Assembly (NCBI GenBank): GCA_033182465.1
Contig: CP137327.1
Span: 1 to 64,000 of the forward strand
Reading direction: 5' to 3'
Origin: Sanghuangporus weigelae
Lineage: Eukaryota; Basidiomycota; Agaricomycetes; Hymenochaetales; Hymenochaetaceae
DNA: 64,000 nucleotides
Of this stretch, positions 21,966 through 39,113 are shown one piece after another. The position numbers and the translations under genes are program-made. A model generated the notes under the pieces. That model saw nothing but the letters and a program-made list of their open reading frames with translations. It searched no databases and was not told the DNA's origin. How positions within the stretch are numbered: the first letter of the stretch is position 1; each line of letters opens with the position of its first letter.

Positions 21966-22836
21966 CTCTCTTCAGTGCATAAGTGATGTAATTTGAAGAA
22001 CCGAGATGGCGCAGGAGAAGTGGCAATGATGTCATCAATGAGACTCTTCGAGGGTCAAGAGGTGCTTTATAAACCTGCCTGATTTTGAAAAGAGTATAAG
22101 AAGCAAATTGAGTCAACCTAAAGGATCGGATGCATAGCGTCGGAGTCGGCTTGTAGGTCCTCGAATACGTTTCGTGAAAAGAAGTCTATAGCATCAACCA
22201 GAGCATTTGTGCTCATCACTCCTTTCTGTGAGATAATCAAAGAATGAGGGCAGCAGGTCGACAGAAGAGAGTATCTTACCTGAACGTCGTGATAGCAGAA
22301 GATATACACTCTGATCTTTCCGGTTCCAGCTATCTTCACCTCGCGGATTGGACGCGTACTCCTGTAAGCCTAATTTGATCTATCGGAGAACAATTTCTGT
22401 TGTAACTGCAGCATATCTGCTTGTAACAAGAGCACGCAGAACATCTGCAGCAGTTTGGCGCTGTGTCGTTCCTCCAGCAGTCGGACCGTCAGCAATGAGA
22501 GCCGAACTCGCACTAGCAAATGTAAGATCGAGACGCACATATTCAAGAGCGTCGTCTTCGGACTGCACTACTTCATGAGTCCCCAGCGACACATTGAGTA
22601 TGATGATGCCTTCAACAAGGCCATCGATAGTCTCTCGGCTCTCGAAAATTCCTCGAAAATTCCCAGAGCGGATAGCCGTACTAAGAAAACGGAGTGACTG
22701 ACTTACGAGGCCGGATCGCCGACCGCCACTCAGAAGACGCCAGAGAGCACGAACGAAAGCTTCAACTGAATTTGAGCTGACGAGCAGCTCCGGATACCGA
22801 TGAGCACATGCTTCAGCAAGCTCAAAAATAGCGGTG
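21966..22836 (-). pseudogene. CSE1 fragment, continuing the copy at 37295-39113
   Basis: The minus strand reads IFELAEACAHRYPELLVSSN, LVSQSLRFLSTAIRSGNFRG, EVVQSEDDALEYVRLDLTFA, RKDQSVY and, after the same short intron, AIDFFSRNVFEDLQADSD. This is CSE1 in order. It ends at AAAATAGCGG, and the gene resumes at 37295 (GTGGTCTTTATTTGAG). The uninterrupted form of this junction is visible at 4388-4405 (AAAAATACCGGTCTTTG), which shows that 22837-37294 is an insertion. Confidence 0.8.
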
Positions 22837-24688: not shown

Positions 24689-26200
24689 TGAAAGGATCCG
24701 CTCAAAATCTCGCATCAGGATCGACACGATCAACAGAGCTACACGATCAGCTTTCCAAACGCGACCGGTAACCAAGCCAGCTATCAAAGGCCCAAGCAAT
24801 CGAGCGGCCTAGGCAACAGTAACCCGTTACCACCCGAGCGCTAGAAGCACCGAAGCGGATACGTAATCCCGCTAACAGCTAACACCGCCGACCGCCTATT
24901 ACCGCGGACTACCACTCTAACGCCGCCGACCAAGCAACCAGAGCGACCTCGATCAAAAGAAGCGATCAAACTTCTTAGAAGTCCAGAAGCACAACTACTA
25001 AAGCCTAAACGCTAAAAGGCTAAAGGCTAATAAGGTTTATGGAGACCTCACTGGCATTTCAGCACTGTCAAGTCTGTGCACGAGTTTACATGGTCCTTTA
25101 TGAAGTATACTACTTAGTATGCACGGCAACGGTTGGTACGCGTGACTGTCACATCGAAACCGAGCGACACCTTCAGGATACAATGCATTCCAATCCACCA
25201 AGCCCAATAGTACCCAAGAAACGAGAGGAACTCACGATCACAACTCGGACCCCTCGAACTGCGAACCCGATAACTTGGAGAATGATTGGATGGTATAGAC
25301 CGGAGTTGCACACACCATGTCCAGCATCTACGATACAGGCAAACCTTTATTTACCGAGAGATGCGAACCTGGAGACCAAGCAATTACAACTCCTTATACA
25401 ACGGAGGATATGGCGCTACATTCGAGATATACGATACGAAGGCAAAGCATGGCTAGTCACCAGAACCCAGCAGAACCCACCAGCAGAGCTTATGCAGTTC
25501 ATGATATGCCTTGGACCATACTCTACACCGACCCGACACCTTAACACTGACGTGCGAGTTATGCTTACCCTCGCTGGACCTCGAGATGAATTCCGAAGAA
25601 TCACATACCGAGCAGCCTACATCGCTCCAAGAGCAAAGATGCCACTCAATGACGGCAATAACATCGTTATGGAGTACTGACAGTGGAGCATTCCATATCG
25701 GAGCACCACCTCTATTGTCTCAGTCAGCAACTCCAAAGAATTCTGTCATAGTGGAGACGACCTTACAGAGATTGGAGCAAAGTGGAGCGAAGCGCAACAG
25801 GATGACAAAGGAACAGATGTAATGGTGGAGAAAAGTGGAGTAAAGTGGAGACAGGATGAGTAAGAAATAGGACGGAAAATGGAATATCTGGGAGCATAAA
25901 TAGTTGTAGGATTAGGCCCTCATTTCCCCATCTTTCGATCCTCTTAACACACTGGTGTAAAGCTTGCCCTACAGCGAGCTATTACTGTGTGCTTTGTACT
26001 ATCACGCCTCTTGGAAATCCCAATCTGCTTTACTATCACCTCGTATCTGAAAGTATCCATAACTCGGACCGCGACTAAGAAGGCTAGTAAGGGACCGCGT
26101 GGTACAGCCAGACGTGGGTAGATAAGATCACCTTTGCACAACATATCGCTGCTTAGGCAAAAGGATCGAACCGGTGTAACCCCGGGCCTACTCCCTAACA
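24689..26200 (+). repeat. Gypsy-1 5' LTR
   Basis: 1512 bp with TG...CA ends. A TATA-like CATAAATAG at about 25894-25902 puts the likely transcript start near 25920, making about 1.2 kb of U3. The U3 holds the 213-codon ORF. No indel separates it from the 3' LTR: every ORF in it recurs at an offset of exactly 10779. Confidence 0.95.
25039..25680 (+). CDS. ORF inside the 5' LTR (U3), 213 residues
   Basis: An uninterrupted 213-codon ORF sits in the U3 part of the LTR and is repeated in the 3' LTR at 35818-36459. I recognise no domain. It has a basic, Pro/Thr-rich middle (residues about 50-95) and a more folded-looking C-terminal half with QLLIQRRIWRYIRDIRYEGK. Only the 3' LTR copy would lie on the element's own full-length RNA. 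ORFs within U3 are rare but known in some retroviruses. It may be chance, since the LTR is poor in stop codons; identical LTRs give no test for selection. Confidence 0.4.
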   Translation: METSLAFQHCQVCARVYMVLYEVYYLVCTATVGTRDCHIETERHLQDTMHSNPPSPIVPKKREELTITTRTPRTANPITWRMIGWYRPELHTPCPASTIQANLYLPRDANLETKQLQLLIQRRIWRYIRDIRYEGKAWLVTRTQQNPPAELMQFMICLGPYSTPTRHLNTDVRVMLTLAGPRDEFRRITYRAAYIAPRAKMPLNDGNNIVMEY

Positions 26201-26201
26201 T

Positions 26202-26219
26202 TGGATCGAAAGATCACTC
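26202..26219 (+). other. Candidate primer binding site of Gypsy-1
   Basis: TGGATCGAAAGATCACTC begins one base after the 5' LTR. It starts with TGG, as expected for pairing with a tRNA 3' CCA end. The tRNA was not identified. Confidence 0.5.
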
Positions 26220-26261
26220 GCTAGTTTTACCACCACCTCTCACGGGCAAGGTTCTTGGCTA

Positions 26262-26603
26262 GTGTTCTATCGAGGCGAGGACCGTCGACCTCAAGTCCCT
26301 ATCGACGTCACTAGTTTCGAGACTAGTACCCATATCGAATCCTCAGGACAAGTGCACATCCTGGAGAACGACAAACCCGATTCACTTAAATCACATATCT
26401 ACTATCATAACCCCTACAACGACGAAGTGTACCTAATAGCAAAGGCATCTGGTAGCCCTGCAGTTGGGAGCACGCAAACAACAACCACGAAAGTAGCAGC
26501 AGTCCCTTCCACTATTGCTACATTCGACGAGAAAGGAACTACTTGGTTAACAGCACCAAGGAACAATAACCCTGAAGCATCAGGCGAGAAACGAAGTTCA
26601 TGA
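26262..26603 (+). CDS. Gypsy-1 ORF A, 113 residues, unknown
   Basis: This is the first ORF of the internal region, 60 bp after the 5' LTR. It is Ser/Thr-rich with no recognised domain. A readable middle is HIYYHNPYNDEVYLIAKASG. Its stop overlaps the start of the next ORF in ATGA (26600-26603), an arrangement that allows reinitiation after termination. It could be a leader or an accessory gag-like protein. There is no evidence of function beyond its intact frame in an apparently young element. Confidence 0.55.
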   Translation: MFYRGEDRRPQVPIDVTSFETSTHIESSGQVHILENDKPDSLKSHIYYHNPYNDEVYLIAKASGSPAVGSTQTTTTKVAAVPSTIATFDEKGTTWLTAPRNNNPEASGEKRSS

Positions 26604-27634
26604 ACCGATCAGGAAACGCCAACAACAGAAGTAACGGTCATCGAACGAACGAACGGGCGAACGATAATCAAACGAGGTTCACACCTAGATCCCTCGACGA
26701 ACGAGTTCAACATATCACCAACAGGCTACGTAGTCTGGAAAGCGATCACGACATACTATACGCGACAACGAACCACAGCATATTGTATCCACCAGTGATC
26801 AGAAGGCTACAAGAAAGGGTTGAAAGACTGGAAGAACGAACTGCAAACACGGGGCAGTCAAACAGTCTACCAACCGGAGCATACGCGACAGCAGTAGGAG
26901 ATCGATTCGAAGCACTCGAAACAACTACTCGAAGAATTGGAGCACAGGTAGCAGCTCTAGAGAGATATACTCTGGAATTGGATCGAGCAGCAGGGGCACT
27001 CAATCAACGGGTCATAGAAGGAAACGGAGTACTTGACCGAGAGCTCAACGCTATCCGAAACAGGATTACTGCTCAGGAACAACAACTACAGACAATCGAG
27101 ACAAGAGTCGGAGAGCTTAACAGGACAGCTCTAGATCAACCAAGGATTGTTCAAGACATCCATAACCTGCGAGAAGCCCTACTCCAACTAGGACAAACAA
27201 TCGAGTCGAGTCAACGCACCTACGCAGCTATACTCACATCGGTACAGACAACCGAAACTACCTCGAGGAACATACTCGAACACGCTCAACGAATTCGAGA
27301 AGTAGCTCAGGCAGCACAACGCTGGGAATACTTTCTACCAAGAGAGAGAGCCCAACAGGAACAGAGTTCTGACGAATCAGTGTCCTCAGACGAAGAAGCA
27401 TCACGAAGGCCATTCTTACTCAGAACCCCACCTCGAACGGTTATCATCCAAGTACCAACAGTACCTGCAGTACCAGCAAGTGGTTCAGTAGCAACCCAAG
27501 CGCCAGAGAATCCACCACCACCATCCTATTCACCACCAGCAGTGCCCATAAGCACTTACGATCATGTCGACAACCGACCAGAAGGTGCAAGCACTGGAGC
27601 AGCAACTACAGACTCTTCAGACACAACTCTCTAA
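26600..27634 (+). CDS. Gypsy-1 ORF B, coiled-coil protein, 344 residues
   Basis: Residues about 30-230 are heptad-like and charged (RLRSLESDHD, RLQERVERLEERTANTG, ITAQEQQLQTIETRVGELNR), predicting a long coiled coil. The C-terminal 100 residues are Ser/Pro/Ala-rich and acidic. It overlaps ORF A by 4 nt and gag by 71 nt in a different frame. A coiled-coil ORF of similar character is seen at the start of the element at 63399. An assembly or RNA-packaging role beside gag is possible but is inference. Confidence 0.7.
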   Translation: MNRSGNANNRSNGHRTNERANDNQTRFTPRSLDERVQHITNRLRSLESDHDILYATTNHSILYPPVIRRLQERVERLEERTANTGQSNSLPTGAYATAVGDRFEALETTTRRIGAQVAALERYTLELDRAAGALNQRVIEGNGVLDRELNAIRNRITAQEQQLQTIETRVGELNRTALDQPRIVQDIHNLREALLQLGQTIESSQRTYAAILTSVQTTETTSRNILEHAQRIREVAQAAQRWEYFLPRERAQQEQSSDESVSSDEEASRRPFLLRTPPRTVIIQVPTVPAVPASGSVATQAPENPPPPSYSPPAVPISTYDHVDNRPEGASTGAATTDSSDTTL

Positions 27635-28652
27635 ACACAGCATCAAGCTTCCGAAGTACTATGGCAAGCGAAGCGAAGATATTGATCTGTGGATTAGTCG
27701 ATGTATCTCGAAGCTGGCACAGCATGGAGTCAAGGATGAGGAGGAGATCGCAAAGAGCCTATTTGCGGCACTAGAAGGCGACAGCTACGATTGGTTTGCA
27801 GAGAAGAATACCCTAACATCATTCGATGCCAATGGGAAACTGAAACCAGTACCTGCGATTATCGCTGCAACAAATGGAATGTTCGCATCACTCAAGGACA
27901 TGCTGAACTGGATGAGGATCCGAGCAGGACATCCGATCATTGGAGAACAGGAAGCCCTATTCCAACTACTATGCATCCAGCAGAAAGGAGCAAGCATTAG
28001 GGCGTACAACGACGAATTCCGACGACTCAAAGCACGAGCACCAGACACGATGGATAAGCAGATGCTCAAGTACATCTATGTCAAAGGACTAGACATGTGG
28101 GTCAAACGACGAGTCAAATCTGTACAACCCGACGCTTTCGAGAAGAACGACCTCGATGCATGGATGGAATGGACAAGCAACCTAGCAAACTCTGATGCCA
28201 GGCAAAGGCTCATGGGTAGTCAAACATATACCCCAAGATTCAAATCGAATGGACAGTCATCTTTCCGACCACCAGTACAAACAACGAAACGAGATCCAGA
28301 CGCCATGGATGTAGATGCACTCCGAGGCTTGCCGAAGAAGGGAGGCAAATGCTACAACTGTGAAAAGTCAGGACATTACGCAAAGGATTGCAAGGCACCA
28401 AGGAAGCAAAAGGGTTCTTCCTCTAAGCGGCCGAAGAAGACTAATGGTGTAAAACGGAGGACGATGACAACACGAACAATCGATTTCAAGGAAACATGTC
28501 CCGATCCACACTGCCGAAGGCCAGTCCACTACGATCATGTAGCATGGGCTAAAGGCGATGAATCAGCAGGATGGACTTGCAAGCATGACGAAGAATACCG
28601 AAACAACATTCGCAAATCCCTAGCAAGTAAAGAGCAACAGGGAAAAGATTAA
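27564..28652 (+). CDS. gag: Gypsy-1 Gag
   Basis: 362 residues. A short coiled coil at the N-terminus (VQALEQQLQTLQTQLSKH) is followed by a capsid-like region: LPKYYGKRSEDIDLWISRCI, then GEQEALFQLLCIQQKGASIR and FRRLKARAPDTMDKQMLKYI, as in Ty3/Gypsy Gag. A CCHC zinc knuckle, CYNCEKSGHYAKDC, lies at about residues 264-277, followed by a basic tail. The start ATG lies inside the end of ORF B. The pol frame begins in the -1 frame just before the gag stop, so a Gag-Pol fusion by -1 frameshifting is likely. Confidence 0.93.
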   Translation: MSTTDQKVQALEQQLQTLQTQLSKHSIKLPKYYGKRSEDIDLWISRCISKLAQHGVKDEEEIAKSLFAALEGDSYDWFAEKNTLTSFDANGKLKPVPAIIAATNGMFASLKDMLNWMRIRAGHPIIGEQEALFQLLCIQQKGASIRAYNDEFRRLKARAPDTMDKQMLKYIYVKGLDMWVKRRVKSVQPDAFEKNDLDAWMEWTSNLANSDARQRLMGSQTYTPRFKSNGQSSFRPPVQTTKRDPDAMDVDALRGLPKKGGKCYNCEKSGHYAKDCKAPRKQKGSSSKRPKKTNGVKRRTMTTRTIDFKETCPDPHCRRPVHYDHVAWAKGDESAGWTCKHDEEYRNNIRKSLASKEQQGKD

Positions 28653-31600
28653 GACCTCCATCGAACGAGACTGCGCGATGTGAGTGTAACAAGGGTGACG
28701 AGAAAGGTTTCAACAACCAGTGTTTCAAACCTCCTGGGTTCAACCCCAGTGAAGCGATGTACAATAAGCGATTGCCAATACAAGCATTGCATCCCCGATT
28801 ACCTATTCGAGTGAAGGTTGGAACAAAGACCCTAGCAGTCAAAGCGTTAATCGATTCCGGAGCTACATGCAGCACGATACACCCCAACTTGGTACGACAC
28901 TACAGCCTATTCAAAAAGAGGCTTGATCACCCTCGACCTTTGAATAATGCGGATGGAAGTCCCAACCAAGGAGGAGCAATCACGCACGAGGTCTACACAT
29001 TAATTTTTGATGGACCTAGACCGCAGCCACAAACGTTGGCAGTAGCAACCACAGGACAGGATCAAGTGATCCTAGGAATTGACTATTTGGCCAAAGTCAA
29101 TCCCGAAATTGATTGGAAGAATCAAGTATGGAATCGGAATGGTAATTCGATACCATTCGAGCTCAACGTCATACGAGCTACCAAGAAGCGAAGGCACAGG
29201 AAGCGCAAACGGAAACGGCAAACGAAAGGCAAACCTGACAAGACAAGACCTAGGCATAACACGAAGCAACAGGCTCAGGACAGAGACAACTATCGACACT
29301 CTGGAGCACCAGGAATAATATTTGCGCCAAGGAGAGACAACAACGGACACTCTCACGAAACGAAACCACAAGCGAAGCCGGAAACCAGACCAGCAATACC
29401 AAGACTGGAACAGGCAAAACAGACGCCAGAAGTGAAGAGTCCGAGCACGGAAAATATACCAGACTCTGCAACGAAACAGCCACAACAGGAAACGGCAAAC
29501 AAGCATCATCGAGATGAGGAGGAAATAAACTACACTCCCAAGCGATGGAAGAAACAGGCACCACAAGGAACGAGTATAGTGCAACGACGACCAAGGCACA
29601 TACCGAGACGGATGATCCCAGCACGGCAATTGTACCAGACATCCGAAGGCGAAACAGAAGAGATAACAGGCAAGCATAGCCTAGACGAACAGGAGGAAAT
29701 AAATGACTCTCCGAAACGTTGGAAGAAACAACCACCACAGAAGATACATCCACTAAGGCAAAACATGCCGGAAGATGAAGAACTCTGGCCATCACCAGAA
29801 GAAAACCCGGGCATGAAGTATAGGATACGACCACGAAAGACACGGTATCCAGAGAAGCCAGTGGCAGGCATTATACGACCGAGAACGGCATCGTTAATGC
29901 GAGGAGCTAGTCCCACACCGAAGCGTACAAGATGGGCAGACAACGAAAGCGATATCGAGATGCAAGACGAGCAGGAGACAACAGAAGACACTCCTATGCA
30001 CGACATAGAGCCAGAAGACATTGAAAGTCTTAGGACGACCAACCAACCAGCTACCCTTACCAGAAAGGAAGAGCTCGCTGCAAAGCTAGAGCTAGACATC
30101 AATCGAAATTGGTCACCAAGGCAGCAGAACCAAGTCTCACAGCCTCTGAACAAAGCGAGTTCAGTATCCCAGCAGTATTCTCAACAAAAGGCAGCTGCAG
30201 AAGGACTACTAGGAACACAGAAACGAGATTGGCGAAAACTCCTACCAAAGGAAATAGAAGACTACGCAGATGTCTTTGATCCTGACAAGTCAAGAAGGTT
30301 ACCCAAGCATACGAAATGGGATATGGCGATTAACCTCAAAGAAGGAGTACCATTACCGAAACCAAGGCCTATTATCAAGCTCACACGAGAAGAGCAGGCA
30401 GCACTCGATGCTTACGTCAAAGAGTTACTTGACAAAGGATGGATTGAAAAGGTTCAACCACATGAACCATGTCCGGTAGCAGCACCAGTCTTCTTTGTAG
30501 GAAAGAAAGACGGAGGAGCACGAGCAGTAACCGATTACCGAGACATCAACGACACGACAGTATCAGACCCATACCCGATACCGATCATGAGTGTTCTCCC
30601 AGAGAAACTGGAGAAAGGAAAATTCTTCTTTACACTCGACATGCGATCAGGTTACAACAACCTGCGAATCCGAGAAGGAGACGAGTGGAAGGCAGCATTC
30701 CGAGTTGGCAATGCAGTCTACAAGCCAAAGGTCATGATGTTTGGAATGAAGAACTCACCTGCAGTATTCCAACGATTCATGAATGACAACTTCGAATATT
30801 GGCTCAGGACAGAAGAAGCACTCAACTATTTGGACGACCTTATTGGTCAAGCACAAACTGAAGAGGAACATTGGAAACTCCTCAGGGCAATTCTACAGAA
30901 ATGCCGAGAGCTCGACATTTACCTCAAAATCGAGAAATGTCACTTCCTCCAAACCCAGCTCGACTACTTGGGATTTGTAGTAGGAACAAAAGGCATCCAG
31001 ATGGATCCTTATAAGCTCAAAGCTATTCACGAATGGCCAGTGCCAAAGACGAAACGACAAGTTCGAAAGTTCCAAGGATTTTGTAACTTCTACCGAAGAT
31101 TCATCAGGAACTATGCCGATACATTCGCACCTATTGGCGACCTTATCAAAAAGGATCGCAAGTTCATATGGGCAGAGGCACAAGATAAGGCATTCGAAAG
31201 TATCAAGAAGGCATTCGAAACGGAAGTCGCATTGGCAATGCCAAAGCCAGACAAACCACATACATTGGAAACCGATGCATCCGATGTAGCGATTGGTGCA
31301 GTCTTACAACAAGAAGACAACCAAGGAGAACTGAGACCTTTAGGTTTCATGTCGAAAACTCTAACGAACACCCAACGAAACTATCCGACGCATGACAAAG
31401 AGATGCTAGCAATCATGGAAGCACTCAAGCATTGGAGACACCTATTGGAGGGAACCAAAGAACCAGTAACAATCCGAAGCGATCATGCAAACCTCCGATA
31501 CTTCATGACAGCTCAGAATCTATCGAGACGTCAAGCAAGATGGGCACTAGAGTTATCACGATATAACTTCAAGATTCTCCATTGGCCAGGCAAGAAGAAC

Positions 31601-33235
31601 CAAGCTGACGAGCTATCACGACGATCCGACTATATGCCAGAGGACAAGGACAACTTAGGAGTTACCTTGTTACCTCCTGATACGATCAAGCAACAAACAT
31701 TGCGACGCACAGAGATCAACGGTCTATACAAGCTAGAAACTGAAATGGTCACTATCTCTGATCCTATTATCCGAACGATCAAGAGGAACTACAATACCGA
31801 GGAGGCTAAGAAGGAAATTCAGGCGATCAAGCAGAGCAACGGCTACAGTTACAGGAACGGCTTGCACTACGTAACCAATGCATTATATATCCCGCCGTCC
31901 GCCAACCTACGAGCGTTGCTAATCCGAAGGCGCCATGATCACAAACTTGCAGGCCACCCAGGAGCAGAAAAGACCATAGAGCTTGTAAAGCGATCATACT
32001 ATTGGCCGAAGATGGAAGAAATGATCCGAGCATATACCGCAACCTGCGACATATGTCAGCGTGCAAAACCGATTCGACAGTTTCGAAATCCGCCGCTCCA
32101 ACCGTTGGAGGCACCACATCAACCATGGGAAACCATAACCTGTGACCTGATTACCGACTTACCAGTTAGCAATGAAGGCTACAGTGCGATACTCGTTATA
32201 GTGGACAAACTCACTAAAATGGGGAAGTTCATTCCTTGCCAAGGAATACCCAATGCTAAGCAGTTGGCACGTTTGTTCCGCCAACATGTCTTCAAATACT
32301 ACGGGGCCCCTAAACGAGTAATCTCCGACCGAGGTAGCAACTTCACCGCGCAATTCCTCAAGGAGTTCTGCAGACTCATCGATGTCGATTGGAAAACTAG
32401 TACAGCGTATCATCCACAAACCGATGGTCAAACCGAGCGACTAAATCAAGAGCTTGAACAGTACTTACGCTGCTATGTGTCCTACCGACAAACAGATTGG
32501 GCAGAGTACATCGATATAGCAGAATTCGCCTACAACAACAGGAAGCACAGTGCTACACATCAGTCACCATTCTATACACTGTATGGATGGCATCCTCACC
32601 TGGACGTTGCGGAGACCGGTGATTCAAACGTCCCAGAAGCAATAAATCACCTGAAGGAGCTTCGACAAGTACAGCAAGAAGCCTATAATTCGATTAGGCA
32701 AGCGAATGAGGCAATGAAGCTTTATGCAGACCTGCATCGAGGCAAACTGCCAGAGTACAAGCCAGGAGACGAAGTGTTACTAGACATGAGGAATCTCAGT
32801 CGATTGGAACCAACGAAGAAACTTGCAATGAAATGGGCAGGGCCTTATAAAGTCGAGAAGGCAGTCGGACAAGTGTCATTCAGATTACGCTTACCCGAAA
32901 CCCTTCCGATCCACCCAGTGTTTCATGCGAGTCTTCTCAGGCCTTACAAACGAAAGGAATACCCTGGAAGACCCACTTTGGATGAACCACCACCTATTGA
33001 AGTGGAGGGAGAAGCAGAGTACGAAGTGGAGACAATTCATAACACAAGACGTCATCGGAGCAAGGTCCAATACCTTATCCAATGGAAAGGATACCAGGAG
33101 CGAACATGGGAGCCACTTGACAACCTCAAGAACTCCTATCAAATGATCGAAGCATTCCATAAAAAGTATCCTCAGGCAATCCAGCCACCGAACCTTAACC
33201 AATGGATCGCCGCACGAAAACGAATGAGGCAATAG
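28631..33235 (+). CDS. pol: Gypsy-1 Pol with chromodomain
   Basis: The frame is open from 28631; the first ATG is at 28757 (residue 1 for the positions given here). Protease: LIDSGATCSTIH at about 32. A long basic, Gln/Lys-rich spacer covers about 130-470. Reverse transcriptase covers about 510-730 (FFTLDMRSGYNNLRI and YLDD at about 690). RNase H begins near 830 (LETDASDVAIGAVL). Integrase has an HHCC finger at about 1060-1105 (HKLAGHPGAEK...CDICQ) and D, D, E at about 1129, 1188 and 1228 (CDLITDLP, VISDRGSNF, QTERLNQELEQYL). The C-terminal chromodomain (about 1420-1475) includes VQYLIQWKGYQERTWEPLDN and would direct integration to modified histones. No stop or frameshift is seen, so it is probably functional. 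Confidence 0.95.
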   Translation, partial: RATGKRLRPPSNETARCECNKGDEKGFNNQCFKPPGFNPSEAMYNKRLPIQALHPRLPIRVKVGTKTLAVKALIDSGATCSTIHPNLVRHYSLFKKRLDHPRPLNNADGSPNQGGAITHEVYTLIFDGPRPQPQTLAVATTGQDQVILGIDYLAKVNPEIDWKNQVWNRNGNSIPFELNVIRATKKRRHRKRKRKRQTKGKPDKTRPRHNTKQQAQDRDNYRHSGAPGIIFAPRRDNNGHSHETKPQAKPETRPAIPRLEQAKQTPEVKSPSTENIPDSATKQPQQETANKHHRDEEEINYTPKRWKKQAPQGTSIVQRRPRHIPRRMIPARQLYQTSEGETEEITGKHSLDEQEEINDSPKRWKKQPPQKIHPLRQNMPEDEELWPSPEENPGMKYRIRPRKTRYPEKPVAGIIRPRTASLMRGASPTPKRTRWADNESDIEMQDEQETTEDTPMHDIEPEDIESLRTTNQPATLTRKEELAAKLELDINRNWSPRQQNQVSQPLNKASSVSQQYSQQKAAAEGLLGTQKRDWRKLLPKEIEDYADVFDPDKSRRLPKHTKWDMAINLKEGVPLPKPRPIIKLTREEQAALDAYVKELLDKGWIEKVQPHEPCPVAAPVFFVGKKDGGARAVTDYRDINDTTVSDPYPIPIMSVLPEKLEKGKFFFTLDMRSGYNNLRIREGDEWKAAFRVGNAVYKPKVMMFGMKNSPAVFQRFMNDNFEYWLRTEEALNYLDDLIGQAQTEEEHWKLLRAILQKCRELDIYLKIEKCHFLQTQLDYLGFVVGTKGIQMDPYKLKAIHEWPVPKTKRQVRKFQGFCNFYRRFIRNYADTFAPIGDLIKKDRKFIWAEAQDKAFESIKKAFETEVALAMPKPDKPHTLETDASDVAIGAVLQQEDNQGELRPLGFMSKTLTNTQRNYPTHDKEMLAIMEALKHWRHLLEGTKEPVTIRSDHANLRYFMTAQNLSRRQARWALELSRYNFKILHWPGKKNQADELSRRSDYMPEDKDNLGVTLLPPDTIKQQTLRRTEINGLYKLETEMVTISDPIIRTIKRNYNTEEAKKEIQAIKQSNGYSYRNGLHYVTNALYIPPSANLRALLIRRRHDHKLAGHPGAEKTIELVKRSYYWPKMEEMIRAYTATCDICQRAKPIRQFRNPPLQPLEAPHQPWETITCDLITDLPVSNEGYSAILVIVDKLTKMGKFIPCQGIPNAKQLARLFRQHVFKYYGAPKRVISDRGSNFTAQFLKEFCRLIDVDWKTSTAYHPQTDGQTERLNQELEQYLRCYVSYRQTDWAEYIDIAEFAYNNRKHSATHQSPFYTLYGWHPHLDVAETGDSNVPEAINHLKELRQVQQEAYNSIRQANEAMKLYADLHRGKLPEYKPGDEVLLDMRNLSRLEPTKKLAMKWAGPYKVEKAVGQVSFRLRLPETLPIHPVFHASLLRPYKRKEYPGRPTLDEPPPIEVEGEAEYEVETIHNTRRHRSKVQYLIQWKGYQERTWEPLDNLKNSYQMIEAFHKKYPQAIQPPNLNQWIAARKRMRQ
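28640..28646 (+). promoter_or_regulatory. Candidate -1 frameshift heptamer GGGAAAA
   Basis: In the gag frame the heptamer reads G GGA AAA, the X XXY YYZ form used in -1 programmed frameshifting. The gag stop TAA (28650-28652) follows one codon later. The pol frame is open from 28631, so a shift here enters pol. A weak 5-bp stem (28659-28663 with 28676-28680) lies 12 nt downstream. This is predicted from sequence only. Confidence 0.6.
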
Positions 33236-33410
33236 TTGCATCACATGCACTCCACCCGATGGAGCCGCTTATGGATCCACAATAGAGACGATGAGTAAGG
33301 TCCCCAATGACCTTACCAAGCGATGACATCAATGTGGCACACCAAAGCGAGAGCAGAGATAGAAGAATTAGGCAAGACATCGCCGACATACCAACAAGAT
33401 GGTATAAAAC

Positions 33411-34487
33411 GTGGAGAACTTCGAGCTAAGGAACAACAACTCGAATCTCAACAGCTCTACTTCACTGCAGACGAACCACTACTCAGCTATGCCTATTTTC
33501 GACGAGCTACATGCATTCTGTCAACCAGAAGATGCACCAGAATGGACATTTACACTCAGGCCACCGACCGAACGTTATCAATGGCCACAGCTGTGCAACC
33601 GATTCAACGAAGAGAACTACGAAGACGAAATCGTACCCCTATGCCCAGGAAAGTACTTCGACGATCTATTTGACAAGTGGAACGCAGTCCACCACAACCG
33701 AGACGAAATACCCCATCTTATGATGGCGAATCACTCAGACGAGTGGCTATTCAAACTCAGTAACCCTCGAGACGCAGCATTACGCCGACTCAATGATGAT
33801 GCATTTCTAACCTATGCGATCGAACTCGAAACACAAGCATTACACCGAGGCAAGATCGACTTTAGGCACGAAACGACATACAAGAACATCATGGGCATCT
33901 ATCATTCGGCAATTCAAATTTGCGCCTACCGACGAGACATGACTACCGCAATTCTTAACCGAATGATGCGATGGAGTCACTATCATCCAATGAGCATCGA
34001 TGCGATGAAGTACATCATATACATAGCCGACCAGACGGGCTTCTACGCATCCCACACCATGCAGTTCATGACGGTACTCAACATGACGAAGTATTACGAA
34101 GGAACGAGATACCGAACGGTTATTGAAGCGAGGAACTCTACTACGGACGAGCTACCACTCGATGCCATAGAGCACCACGTAGTCGAAGGCAAAGAGGTTA
34201 ACTACGACCCTCATTACCTTATGGAACTCAACAACCGAGAGGAAGAAGCCAGAGAGAAACTACAGGCTACACGACACCCATTGCTGGAAGATCTGATGAT
34301 CTCAGTCTACCAGTACCCGAGCGAACTCTACCAGCCGGACGAGATGCTTACGATGTCAGAACAGGAGGACATGTACATACATTCCGACGACACAGAGTCA
34401 AGCGAAGAAGGTGAAAGCAGGGAACTAGATACCCCAGCGAACTCGGCCCAGACTACACCTGAGGCTGAAGAATCCGAAGATTTGTAA
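33411..34487 (+). CDS. Gypsy-1 ORF after pol, 358 residues, unknown
   Basis: An intact 358-codon ORF, 175 bp after pol on the same strand. The middle is rich in aromatic residues and His (RMMRWSHYHPMSIDAMKYII, FYASHTMQFMTVLNMTKYY) and looks helical. The last 60 residues are strongly acidic and Ser/Glu-rich (DDTESSEEGESRELDTP). No signal peptide, membrane segment or known motif is seen. The position resembles that of env or accessory genes in retroviruses, but nothing in the sequence indicates an envelope protein. Expression would need a subgenomic RNA or an internal start. Confidence 0.65.
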   Translation: MENFELRNNNSNLNSSTSLQTNHYSAMPIFDELHAFCQPEDAPEWTFTLRPPTERYQWPQLCNRFNEENYEDEIVPLCPGKYFDDLFDKWNAVHHNRDEIPHLMMANHSDEWLFKLSNPRDAALRRLNDDAFLTYAIELETQALHRGKIDFRHETTYKNIMGIYHSAIQICAYRRDMTTAILNRMMRWSHYHPMSIDAMKYIIYIADQTGFYASHTMQFMTVLNMTKYYEGTRYRTVIEARNSTTDELPLDAIEHHVVEGKEVNYDPHYLMELNNREEEAREKLQATRHPLLEDLMISVYQYPSELYQPDEMLTMSEQEDMYIHSDDTESSEEGESRELDTPANSAQTTPEAEESEDL

Positions 34488-35027
34488 ACAACTCTTCTTT
34501 TATGCAACCCCTTTCCCATATCGTGACCCGACATGGTCAATTATGCATTTTATTCTTACCCTATGGTATTTATGGTCACATCCGACCAAATTATGCTTTA
34601 TGCACCTCGTTATTTCACGCTCATTCGGCCAACCAGCACAAATGAAGCACTATGCAGAAGTGTCAAAGAACCTACAAGGGCCTAGACATTTTGTATATTG
34701 CGTCATTGTGCCGGCGCCGAATTGGCAGATTATGCCTACCTTTTATTATCCTCTATGCAACGGAGAAGCCAAAAAGGTTACGTGAAGTCACTCCCTTGCA
34801 TTATGCTAGGATGTGCCTTCACGCTGAAAGGCACTCCAATTACACTCTTTCTTCGAAAAACTCCATTTGGGGGTTGAAGAGCCGTAGGTAAACACCTGGA
34901 ACTTCACTCCCAAATTGGTATAAAACTTATTCATTAACGACTTTATGATTTCTTTCTTATCACTTTCAATTGCGTCATATTCTTTACATGATGCACATTT
35001 CATATTCATATCCCTTCCCACCACCCT

Positions 35028-35343
35028 TTACAAGTCAATGTCTTCCCAGACACCCTTTTCACGACGTTCCTGCGAAGCAATACCTGCATTTTCGACGACT
35101 GGATCGATATCCTCAACGTCATAACCGAGCGCGAGGTGAACTCGAAGCGCGACAGTAGTAACATCGCGCTGGAACGATTGCATTTCGAAGTCAGCCTCCT
35201 AGAGGATGATTAACAACTCGAAACGGCACAGAGCATGCATCACTTACCTGAGCACGCCTCTTACGCTCCAAAATCCAATGATTTAGGCCGAAAATCGCGA
35301 CAATAACGACAAAAACAGTAACAGCAGCGGCGACTTTCGACAT
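35028..35343 (-). CDS. Antisense spliced gene in Gypsy-1, small membrane protein
   Basis: Two exons on the minus strand, 35343-35248 and 35198-35028, join in frame across a 49-nt intron with ideal signals (GTAAGT...TTAATC...CTAG). They give 88 residues. The start context is CAAAATG. Residues 4-20 are a hydrophobic segment, VAAAVTVFVVIVAIFGL, followed by a basic stretch, LERKRRAQ; this is the pattern of an N-terminal signal anchor. The C-terminal 56 residues are soluble and acidic, ending EKGVWEDIDL. It lies between the 358-residue ORF and the 3' LTR and is transcribed against the element. It is too short and too split to be found as one ORF. No homologue is recognised. It could be a captured host gene or an accessory gene. 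Confidence 0.65.
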
Positions 35344-35455
35344 TTTGGAGCAGAGATGATGATGGTTTGATAGCAAAAATCAACCATCACTAGGCGACCC
35401 TTTATCCGAGCTTTCTCACGGATTAGGATGAACATTTCTCCGAAAGTTCATCTTA

Positions 35456-35467
35456 GGGGGGGTGTAG
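35456..35467 (+). other. G-rich polypurine-like tract of Gypsy-1
   Basis: A run of seven or more G (TTAGGGGGGG) ends a few bases before the TGAAAGG start of the 3' LTR. It is the likely primer site for plus-strand DNA, though it is interrupted by TGTAG. Confidence 0.45.
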
Positions 35468-36979
35468 TGAAAGGATCCGCTCAAAATCTCGCATCAGGAT
35501 CGACACGATCAACAGAGCTACACGATCAGCTTTCCAAACGCGACCGGTAACCAAGCCAGCTATCAAAGGCCCAAGCAATCGAGCGGCCTAGGCAACAGTA
35601 ACCCGTTACCACCCGAGCGCTAGAAGCACCGAAGCGGATACGTAATCCCGCTAACAGCTAACACCGCCGACCGCCTATTACCGCGGACTACCACTCTAAC
35701 GCCGCCGACCAAGCAACCAGAGCGACCTCGATCAAAAGAAGCGATCAAACTTCTTAGAAGTCCAGAAGCACAACTACTAAAGCCTAAACGCTAAAAGGCT
35801 AAAGGCTAATAAGGTTTATGGAGACCTCACTGGCATTTCAGCACTGTCAAGTCTGTGCACGAGTTTACATGGTCCTTTATGAAGTATACTACTTAGTATG
35901 CACGGCAACGGTTGGTACGCGTGACTGTCACATCGAAACCGAGCGACACCTTCAGGATACAATGCATTCCAATCCACCAAGCCCAATAGTACCCAAGAAA
36001 CGAGAGGAACTCACGATCACAACTCGGACCCCTCGAACTGCGAACCCGATAACTTGGAGAATGATTGGATGGTATAGACCGGAGTTGCACACACCATGTC
36101 CAGCATCTACGATACAGGCAAACCTTTATTTACCGAGAGATGCGAACCTGGAGACCAAGCAATTACAACTCCTTATACAACGGAGGATATGGCGCTACAT
36201 TCGAGATATACGATACGAAGGCAAAGCATGGCTAGTCACCAGAACCCAGCAGAACCCACCAGCAGAGCTTATGCAGTTCATGATATGCCTTGGACCATAC
36301 TCTACACCGACCCGACACCTTAACACTGACGTGCGAGTTATGCTTACCCTCGCTGGACCTCGAGATGAATTCCGAAGAATCACATACCGAGCAGCCTACA
36401 TCGCTCCAAGAGCAAAGATGCCACTCAATGACGGCAATAACATCGTTATGGAGTACTGACAGTGGAGCATTCCATATCGGAGCACCACCTCTATTGTCTC
36501 AGTCAGCAACTCCAAAGAATTCTGTCATAGTGGAGACGACCTTACAGAGATTGGAGCAAAGTGGAGCGAAGCGCAACAGGATGACAAAGGAACAGATGTA
36601 ATGGTGGAGAAAAGTGGAGTAAAGTGGAGACAGGATGAGTAAGAAATAGGACGGAAAATGGAATATCTGGGAGCATAAATAGTTGTAGGATTAGGCCCTC
36701 ATTTCCCCATCTTTCGATCCTCTTAACACACTGGTGTAAAGCTTGCCCTACAGCGAGCTATTACTGTGTGCTTTGTACTATCACGCCTCTTGGAAATCCC
36801 AATCTGCTTTACTATCACCTCGTATCTGAAAGTATCCATAACTCGGACCGCGACTAAGAAGGCTAGTAAGGGACCGCGTGGTACAGCCAGACGTGGGTAG
36901 ATAAGATCACCTTTGCACAACATATCGCTGCTTAGGCAAAAGGATCGAACCGGTGTAACCCCGGGCCTACTCCCTAACA
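35468..36979 (+). repeat. Gypsy-1 3' LTR
   Basis: 1512 bp, matching the 5' LTR with no visible difference. It ends CCCTAACA and is followed by TATATACGG, which is not a copy of the left flank. Confidence 0.95.
35818..36459 (+). CDS. ORF inside the 3' LTR (U3), 213 residues
   Basis: This has the same frame as 25039-25680. It would be at the 3' end of the full-length element RNA, after the 358-residue ORF, and so is the copy available for expression from genomic-type RNA. No domain is recognised, and chance openness is not excluded. Confidence 0.4.
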   Translation: METSLAFQHCQVCARVYMVLYEVYYLVCTATVGTRDCHIETERHLQDTMHSNPPSPIVPKKREELTITTRTPRTANPITWRMIGWYRPELHTPCPASTIQANLYLPRDANLETKQLQLLIQRRIWRYIRDIRYEGKAWLVTRTQQNPPAELMQFMICLGPYSTPTRHLNTDVRVMLTLAGPRDEFRRITYRAAYIAPRAKMPLNDGNNIVMEY

Positions 36980-37294: not shown

Positions 37295-39113
37295 AGTGGT
37301 CTTTATTTGAGAAGAAACACCAGCTATCGGTTCATCCAGATCAGTTTGCAGCTCAGGGGGGGTCCCACAGAAGAAATCGGATGAACATCCTGTTTTCTGC
37401 ACCATTGGTATGAGCGTCCTCAAGCACTGGAGGGATGTCCTGACACACGAGGTCATAGAAAATATTGAGGAGGATGACCATTGCTCGTGCAACAGTTTCC
37501 GCGTCTTTGTTGGGAGGCAATGGGCTGTTGAGGAGCATCCCTGCAGTGCAACAGAGAATCCACTTGCAATAAGGGCACGCAGAACATCTGCAGCGGCTTG
37601 GCGTCATGTCGTTCCTTTTGTAGTCAGACCGTCAGCAATCGCAGCCCAACTCGCACTAGCAAATGTAAGATTGAGACGCACATATTCCAGAGCGTCGTCT
37701 TCAAACTGCTCTACTTCATGAGTCCCCAGCAACACATTCGGTACGACACTGCCTTCAACAAGGCCTCGATAGTCTCCCGGCTCTCGATAATTACTCGATA
37801 ATTCCCAGAGCGGATAGCCGTACTAAGAAAACGGAGTGACTGTCTTACGAGGCCATATAGGCGAGCACGAGAGGCTCTGGCACACAAGGTCATTGAAAAT
37901 ATTGAGAAGGACAAGCATTGCTTGCACAACAGTCTCCATGTCTTTGTTTGGAGGCAATGGGCTGTCGAGAAGCATGCCTGCAGTGCAACGGAGAATCCGG
38001 TTGCAATAAGGACACGCAGAACATCTGCAGCGGCTTGGCGCCGTGTCATTCTCTTCCGCAGTCAAAGTGCAAGCAATCAGAGCTGAACTCACACTAGCAA
38101 ATGTGAGATCGAGACGCACATATTCCAGAGCGTCGTCTTCAAACTGCTCTACTTCATGAATCCCCAGTGACATTCGGCACGACACCACCTTCAACAAGGC
38201 CTCGATAGTCTCCCGGCTCTCGAAAATTCCTTGATAATTTCCAGAGTGGATAGCTGTGCTAAGAAAATGGAGTGACTGTCTTACGAGGCCATATAGGCGA
38301 ATGCAGGAGGTTCTGGCACACAAGGTCATTGAAAATATTGAGGAGGATGACCATTACTTGCACAACAGTCTCCGCGTCTTTGTTGGGAGGCAATGAGCTG
38401 TTGAGGAGCATCTCTGCAGTGTAACGGAGAACTTGTAGGAACGGTTCTGCGAATTGGGCCAGGACGAAGTTGATGACTGTGAATAAATCGTGAGTACGCA
38501 TCTCCGACCGCCATCGTCCCAAATATACAGTGCGCAGTTTCAAGAACTGAGAGATTGACTGCATATGCATCCGGTGCAGGATTTTGCGTGTTCACGAGTT
38601 CCTTAGCTCAAGGTGAGAGCAGCATACAACCTAACTGACTTGGACATACCTTGACAAGACCCTCCCATCGTTCCCAAAAACCGTAAGCTGCAATTATCGA
38701 AACAGTCTCCGCCACCTGTGCACGAAGGTTTTTGTCGAGCGGGCTCGCGAGAGAGATCATTGTGGGAACAAGTTGTGTACGCAGAGGATGCTTTTCAGAA
38801 TTGGGAATAACTGGTTCATCCTAGTGCCCGTCAGCACTTTTAGACACGTAATTAAGCAAGAACACAGTACCTCTTCCCATCTACGCTTGACTGTATTCTT
38901 GAGATAAACACTAGCAGCTAATCGGACGGATCAATCTTGACCTGGGGTGATGACTAGTTGAAGAAGAGCCAACAGAAAGCCCGGCTGAGCTGAAAGAGCA
39001 GGGAGATCTTGCTCTGCCGGTTTGCAAGTTGCCGGTTTGCGAGTTGCCCCTTTGCGAGTTGCAGGATTTAGCGAAGCAGTCGGGATGCGTGGTCGCGGCT
39101 TGCGTGCCAGCAT
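37295..39113 (-). pseudogene. CSE1 copy with N-terminal exons, plus partial duplicates
   Basis: The 5' end of a CSE1 copy is at about 39113 (minus strand): AEQDLPALSAQPGFLLALLQ, a TGA stop at 38931-38933 where Arg (CGA) is expected, then SVRLAASVYLKNTVKRRWEE. After an intron (GTACTG...CACTAG) come DEPVIPNSEKHPLRTQLVPT and QVAETVSIIAAYGFWERWEG, all matching the importin-beta N-terminal region of CSE1. Downstream, 38330-37300 holds INFVLAQFAEPFLQVLRY and several duplicated partial units with EVEQFEDDALEYVRLDLTFA-like blocks and the same faulty LVCQNL-WPRK fusion seen at 2771-3620. The N-terminal exon also has a short in-frame repeat (ATRKGATRKPATCKPA). Confidence 0.8.

Follow-up and report, generated by a model that had tools for sequence, protein, structure and literature searches.

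A probably recently active chromodomain Ty3/Gypsy element of Sanghuangporus weigelae carries four accessory open reading frames under purifying selection

Results and Discussion

We describe a retrotransposon occupying positions 24689 to 36979 of a 64,000-nucleotide stretch of Sanghuangporus weigelae DNA (contig CP137327.1, positions 1 to 64,000, assembly GCA_033182465.1), the whole of which is referred to here as the window. By the order of its predicted pol domains, protease, reverse transcriptase (RT), RNase H and integrase followed by a C-terminal chromodomain, the element belongs to the chromodomain group of Ty3/Gypsy elements (Metaviridae). Comparison among copies shows that four extra open reading frames (ORFs), one in the U3 part of the long terminal repeat (LTR), one before gag (ORF B), one after pol (ORF C) and one spliced and antisense, are under purifying selection and are inherited with the element. 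We therefore think it likely that this is a recently active Sanghuangporus element with four element-borne accessory genes, working in the manner proposed below. A first-pass annotation of the window had put forward a young Ty3/Gypsy element with identical LTRs, open gag and pol and up to six further genes. The young element with its open gag and pol is borne out and the LTRs were correctly placed, while four of the further genes hold.

The principal features, in window coordinates, are the following.

24689..26200, + strand: 5′ LTR, 1512 bp, with TG...CA ends; same sequence as 35468-36979
25039..25680, + strand: U3 ORF, 213 amino acids (aa), within the LTR, ahead of the main promoter; from open copies, homologues and the ratio of nonsynonymous to synonymous substitution rates (dN/dS)
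26600..27634, + strand: ORF B, 344 aa, coiled coil, with a PPSY motif in a proline-rich tail; from dN/dS and open copies
27564..28652, + strand: gag, 362 aa, with a CCHC knuckle; from Pfam and open copies
28646..33235, + strand: pol, with protease, RT, RNase H, integrase and chromodomain (about 33020-33166); from Pfam and PDB
33489..34487, + strand: ORF C, 332 aa, acidic and without a membrane helix; from homologues, codon positions and dN/dS
35028..35343, - strand: antisense gene, encoding 88 aa with a single membrane helix at the N-terminus (exon 1, 35343-35248; intron, 35247-35199, 49 nt; exon 2, 35198-35028); from intron borders and exon 2 dN/dS
35468..36979, + strand: 3′ LTR, holding a second copy of the U3 ORF (35818-36459)

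The element and its copies

The two LTRs of 1512 bp are 100% alike, and gag and pol are open between them. In Pfam, pol matches RT, RNase H, the zinc-binding and core domains of integrase and Chromo (3.9e-10), with protease matches falling under their cut-offs, and it aligns to the Ty3 Gag-Pol structure 7q5b with E=1e-127. The gag product matches zf-CCHC (8e-6) and, under its curated cut-off, Ty3_capsid (7.5e-5). A perfect 5-bp target site duplication (TSD) flanks 8 of 11 complete LTR pairs, the window pair being counted among the 11.

The genome of S. weigelae holds 113 matches to ORF B, of which 107 are full-length or nearly so and 101 of these stop-free. The corresponding figures for ORF C are 111, 106 and 101, and 108 of 109 matches to antisense exon 2 are stop-free. 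There are 110 close copies of gag (103 stop-free), 93 of the 96 RT-RNase H stretches scored among 186 candidates are free of stops, and all 150 U3 ORFs scored among 430 candidates are open. The first-pass annotation had asked whether the accessory ORFs always travel with the same pol. Co-occurrence was counted from ORF B matches rather than from pol, and on that basis joint inheritance with the element is supported within this genome: ORF C lies at the expected place and strand in 102 of the 107 full-length ORF B matches, and ORF C and the antisense exon are both in register in 100. For the U3 and ORF C proteins it is also supported in other Sanghuangporus by way of homologues (see below). All matches to ORF C and the antisense exon in this genome fall in element copies, fragments or diverged relatives, and no separate host gene was found among them.

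Selection on the accessory ORFs

Three sets of diverged sequences were compared with the window copy. The first consists of four decayed copies belonging to its own family (L071-L073 and L075), whose aligned parts are 94.6-96.4% identical; the second is a diverged family that this genome also holds (L069 and L070), called here the second family; the third is a further diverged locus (L078). L075 carries an insertion in ORF B, beside which a short stretch aligns badly. Young substitutions were taken from 68 loci (L001-L068), nearly all of them young copies, with solo LTRs and pieces of neighbouring LTRs included, and the codon-position counts below are of distinct substitutions, not of independent events.

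All four accessory ORFs show constraint specific to their own frame. For ORF B, dN/dS in the four decayed copies is 0.16-0.22 in frame versus 0.72-1.95 out of frame. A further locus, L074, was left out of this range as its match is confined to the first part of ORF B, where it gives 0.45 in frame and 0.91 and 1.12 out of frame. The U3 ORF, compared with four diverged LTRs, gives 0.23-0.25 in frame (0.23-0.24 for L069/L070; 0.24-0.25 for L078) versus 0.72-1.36 out of frame (0.72-1.09 for L078). Against the second family ORF C stands at 0.19 in frame versus 0.82 and 1.31, and antisense exon 2 at 0.17; the latter gives 0.16 with L078 (0.94 and 1.93 out of frame), so that its values span 0.16-0.17 in frame and 0.84-1.93 out of frame. 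In these comparisons with the second family, ORF C and antisense exon 2 are close to saturation in dS. Values for the canonical genes are similar, at 0.07-0.21 for gag in the decayed copies and 0.17-0.28 for pol against the second family, where out-of-frame values across the U3 ORF, ORF C, antisense exon 2 and pol run from 0.79 to 1.58.

The young substitutions point the same way. Changes at first, second and third codon positions number 11, 3 and 60 in ORF C (third-position excess, p=4e-17), 10, 8 and 34 in the U3 ORF (p=2e-6), 5, 1 and 18 in ORF B (p=4e-5) and 2, 1 and 9 in antisense exon 2 (p=0.004), compared with 6, 4 and 32 in the C-terminus of pol (p=2e-8). Stops account for 1 of the 74 changes in ORF C and 4 of the 52 in the U3 ORF. 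Moreover, the GT and AG borders of the antisense intron are kept, and its exons are free of indels, in two diverged copies. The 213-residue U3 ORF, the coiled-coil ORF B and the spliced antisense gene of the first-pass annotation are thus present and selected as proteins, antisense exon 1 taken alone excepted.

Searches with the accessory proteins, which the same annotation had advised alongside dN/dS across copies, were fruitful in part. Six of 604 candidates are homologues of the ORF C protein, from S. weigelae (98% identity), S. sanghuang (70%), S. vaninii (64%) and S. baumii (50-73%, the 73% match covering 43% of the query), and the 604 yielded no homologue outside these four species. Four of 39 candidates are homologues of the U3 protein, all of 212-213 aa, from S. 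weigelae (98%), S. baumii (71-73%) and S. vaninii (70%). The locus tags of these two annotated proteins in S. weigelae (ACEPAI_3465 and ACEPAI_3467) lie two apart, as the element predicts. For ORF B, none of 7212 candidates was significant. The ORF after pol had been given 358 residues; the gene stands, and its length becomes 332 aa from the ATG at 33489, because annotated relatives begin at the same MP(I/V)F. No Pfam match above cut-off was obtained for the U3, ORF C or antisense proteins, and PDB profile searches with the U3 and ORF C proteins returned nothing useful. One Foldseek search with the U3 protein model gave a best E of only 0.14.

Proposed expression and replication

The features on which the proposed mechanism draws are the following.

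25895..25903, + strand: TATA-like box, putative main promoter; conserved in the second family
25930..25941, + strand: ATCTTTCGATCC, predicted mRNA 5′ end and self-primer; complement of 26203-26214, with the start site predicted from the TATA-like box
26202..26603, + strand: 'ORF A', ATG-free open leader; no ATG, no codon signature
26203..26214, + strand: primer-binding site (PBS) GGATCGAAAGAT; reverse complement of 25930-25941
28640..28646, + strand: GGGAAAA, possible -1 frameshift site, from reading of the sequence; kept in L071-L073
33403..33409, + strand: TATAAAA, possible internal promoter of ORF C; GGTATAAA in the second family too

From 25880 to 27563 the sole ATG in any frame is that of ORF B (26600), which has T at -3 and a weak context, and the next is that of gag (27564), with A at -3 and a better context. 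Shuffling predicts 6.6 ATGs for the leader, which contains none. The interior of ORF B likewise has none, where 6.1 are expected when dinucleotides are shuffled and 5.5 when synonymous codons are (p=0.0002); no such depletion is seen in gag, pol, ORF C or the U3 ORF. The same holds at 17 loci with a 5′ LTR (15 distinct young copies, window included; the other 21 LTR loci are 3′ or solo LTRs or lack the motif), where there is no ATG in the 671-nt leader or in the 198-575 nt of ORF B covered. Clear new ATGs number 9, 9, 8 and 5 in the four decayed copies, the last count becoming 8 with three in the badly aligned stretch. We infer that leaky scanning past ORF B to gag is the simplest reading of this avoidance. 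Scanning ribosomes would meet the ORF B AUG first, in its weak context, and some would pass it and start at gag, with no AUG intervening. The coiled-coil ORF B protein would thus be made in a fixed ratio to Gag, most likely as a partner in particle assembly or of the genomic RNA. The pol frame is open from 28631, and GGGAAAA, which lies 3 nt before the gag stop, fits the rule for -1 frameshifting; a -1 slip there would make Gag-Pol. Leaky scanning itself has been shown for rice tungro bacilliform virus (RTBV; PMC4926197).

The transcript would start near 25928. The TATA-like box starts at 25895, and 35 nt further on, at 25930, begins the predicted mRNA 5′ end ATCTTTCGATCC, which over 12 nt is exactly complementary to the PBS just inside the LTR, the start site itself being a prediction. 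The stretch of R containing ATCTTTCGATCC is unchanged in the second family, and the PBS GGATCGAAAGAT is retained in all four decayed copies. The first bases of the transcript would pair with the PBS, and reverse transcription would be self-primed in the manner of Tf1; we infer such Tf1-type self-priming from this complementarity. This predicted arrangement is that of Tf1 and Tj1 (PMC4600332).

ORF A had been counted as a gene. It has no ATG, and its substitutions by codon position (1, 4 and 4 young; 5, 10 and 11 old) place 15 of 35 at third positions (pooled p=0.15). On present evidence we reject it as a gene, and it is probably an ATG-free leader.

ORF C would be translated from a separate mRNA, made through an internal TATA-like box or a 3′ splice site. 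TATAAAA stands some 80 nt upstream of the ORF C start codon without an intervening ATG, and CTACTCAG immediately precedes that start codon; both are for the most part retained in the second family. The antisense gene would have a promoter of its own and give an 88-aa membrane protein by way of a spliced mRNA. The U3 protein would come from an LTR-borne transcript. The U3 ORF is present in both LTRs and would sit at the 3′ end of genomic RNA, and solo LTRs keep it complete. We guess that the ORF C, U3 and membrane proteins might be RNA-export, anti-silencing or trafficking factors, and allot none of these roles to any one of them.

Alternative readings

Several observations weigh against this account. 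Start site, splicing and translation are all predictions from sequence. The window copy has no TSD, nor do two other LTR pairs, and no unusual RNA structure lies downstream of GGGAAAA (z=0.37). The second-family copy (L069/L070) is without the leader-B-gag region, so selection on ORF B was tested within one family only. The AlphaFold models of the U3 and ORF C proteins are poor (predicted local distance difference test, pLDDT, 48 and 37), hence their proposed functions are guesses. Taken by itself, antisense exon 1 lacks a codon signature (5, 3 and 3 changes by position, p=0.77), and over its 32 codons the frames are not separated (0.43 versus 0.26 and 0.47; 0.30 versus 0.19 and 2.84). Lastly, of the ATG sites found in decayed copies, eight are common to two or three copies, and one shared in-frame ATG (27101), two changes from the window sequence, may be ancestral. 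These events are therefore not all independent, the control offered by the decayed copies is weakened, and ORF B may have contained ATGs in older active copies.

The shared ATG at 27101 also lends something to a different reading of the leader, in which ribosomes reach gag by internal entry or on a spliced mRNA and the lack of ATGs serves something else. The case for leaky scanning is likewise one of sequence features, and the leader, being more conserved than ORF B (0.065 versus 0.132 distinct changes per site in decayed copies), probably carries RNA signals. However, ORF B avoids ATGs along its length as well, through its choice of synonymous codons, for which scanning is the simplest explanation, and we regard this alternative as somewhat unlikely.

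It is improbable, in our view, that the antisense locus acts mainly through antisense RNA and not through a protein. The missing codon signature of exon 1 agrees with such a role, and antisense promoters and control by double-stranded RNA are discussed for other elements (PMC7264820). It is harder to square with the low dN/dS of exon 2, the kept intron borders and the indel-free exons.

We give still less credence to an env-bearing, errantivirus-like element in which ORF C or the antisense membrane protein is the envelope and PPSY a budding signal. ORF C does sit where env would be expected, the antisense protein does have a membrane helix, and a PPxY motif lies at residue 307 of ORF B, with PPPPSY readable in three of the four decayed copies and interrupted by the insertion in the fourth. 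However, no segment of ORF C is hydrophobic (the best mean over 19 residues is 0.42) and it was rejected as env for want of a hydrophobic helix, 88 aa is small for a fusion protein, and a PPxY within a proline-rich tail may be chance.

Finally, it is very improbable that the extra ORFs are passengers or frames open by chance, seen intact only through the youth of the copies. Most copies are at least 98% identical, so open frames alone prove little, and ORF A is likely to be just such a frame, but ORF B, the U3 ORF, ORF C and antisense exon 2 have dN/dS of about 0.2 in frame versus about 0.7-1.9 in other frames, 60 of the 74 ORF C substitutions are at third positions, and homologues of the U3 and ORF C proteins persist in other Sanghuangporus species at 50-73% identity.

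Other features of the element and its surroundings

Two non-coding features lie between ORF C and the 3′ LTR.

34501..34806, + strand: cluster of 8 TATGC motifs after ORF C; from shuffle counts
35427..35467, + strand: inverted repeat GATGAAC...GTTCATC, then polypurine tract AGGGGGGGTG (35455); identical in the second family

The TATGC motif was picked by eye; its 8 occurrences compare with 0.58 expected over 2000 base shuffles, and in the second family there are 8 versus 0.85, with spacings that are partly other. A search of viral contigs and a search of Rfam gave nothing useful.

A tandem repeat of about 436 bp lies to the right of the element (window 37433-38431), with related stretches on the left (22415-22722), and both flanks match a repeat in L078, where about 1 kb separates them. 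Loss of a flank-repeat stretch of about 1 kb may explain the missing TSD of the window copy. In L074 (G000:C6:1999637-2002337) the first 245 codons of ORF B are 89% identical, there is no matching leader or gag, and the piece sits between stretches resembling the flanks of the element in reversed order. Changes in L071-L073 and L075 are mostly G>A and C>T, as expected of decay through cytosine methylation or of a mild process resembling repeat-induced point mutation.

At G000:C6:1183069-1205658 three copies stand in tandem at a spacing of exactly 10,779 bases, as if sharing LTRs, and L055 and L063 are copies nested in other copies, their flanks reading as ORF C and U3 ORF sequence. Three open gag relatives of 28% identity (G000:C13:463678, C1:1727871 and C1:3835758), with no ORF B, ORF C or antisense match listed there, probably represent another Ty3/Gypsy family. 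Positions 1-192 of the window are telomeric repeats of a 12-base unit, CCCTAAGCCTAA (15.3 copies, 98% match), which reads as TTAGGG and TTAGGC alternating on the other strand.

Relation to known elements

The element is of a known kind and its accessory set is unusual. Fungal chromodomain Ty3/Gypsy elements (Tcn1-like, MAGGY) and Tf1/Tj1 are essentially gag-pol. A protein gene inside U3 is found in sag of mouse mammary tumour virus, as in the U3 ORF here; sag encodes a mammalian retroviral membrane protein and we claim no similarity. Tcn1-like elements, MAGGY and Tf1/Tj1 are alike with the Sanghuangporus element in LTRs, pol order and chromodomain, and Tf1/Tj1 in the self-priming proposed for it (PMC4600332), but differ from it in its four accessory genes. 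The first-pass annotation had seen here a candidate for an undescribed system. As to kind this goes too far, since plant elements and Boty of Botrytis also have extra ORFs, sense or antisense (PMC7264820); as to the particular set, our literature search, covering titles and abstract openings, found no fungal element with it. A figure legend in PMC2864245 also marks an additional ORF of unassigned function in some element.

Boty of Botrytis cinerea, with its antisense gene brtn (Zhao et al. 2011, via PMC7264820 and PMC8365987), likewise has an antisense ORF between pol and the 3′ LTR. The likeness drawn is one of position, and the excerpted accounts of Boty mention no U3 ORF, ORF B or ORF C. 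The plant elements Grande (gene23), RIRE2, Retand and Bagy2 likewise carry extra sense or antisense ORFs after pol, the antisense gene of Grande with its own promoter; they belong to other hosts, and no LTR gene or pre-gag coiled-coil ORF is described for them in the relevant sections of PMC7264820. Accessory ORFs in gypsy-like elements are also found as the varied ORF3s of bdelloid rotifer LTR elements (PMC5408684) and in the giant planarian Burro elements (PMC6431247). Some of these have membrane helices, and they carry recognisable domains or env, whereas the Sanghuangporus accessory proteins show none above Pfam cut-offs.

RTBV and badnaviruses resemble the element in having ORFs before the main ORF and weak starts, and use the leaky scanning proposed for it (PMC4926197), and here too a long AUG-free stretch precedes a Gag-like ORF and the upstream start is weak. 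They are, however, DNA viruses, and their ORF I is a real gene with a weak or non-AUG start, whereas its counterpart here, ORF A, is unsupported. Cer1 of Caenorhabditis elegans, with CERV, is likewise an LTR element with an extra protein and offers a precedent for export of genomic RNA; CERV comes from a spliced sense mRNA, and the likeness is by description (PMC10309623).

A more speculative possibility, which we consider doubtful, is a logic like that of complex retroviruses, with ORF B as a co-factor made before Gag by leaky scanning, a regulator after pol, an antisense membrane protein and a trans-acting U3 protein. Under the same doubtful scheme solo LTRs would keep supplying U3 protein, and the scattered LTRs (about 430 first-look candidates) would jointly form a control or anti-silencing system.

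The accessory genes of LTR retrotransposons are mostly orphans without a known role. Here a very young family of about 100 copies in the genome of one medicinal mushroom offers intact and decayed copies together with diverged relatives in sister species. This makes two questions testable: do accessory genes take part in export, assembly or escape from silencing, and can solo LTRs act as gene donors? The bicistronic leader without ATGs would, if the proposal holds, provide a clear example of leaky scanning by a Ty3/Gypsy element.

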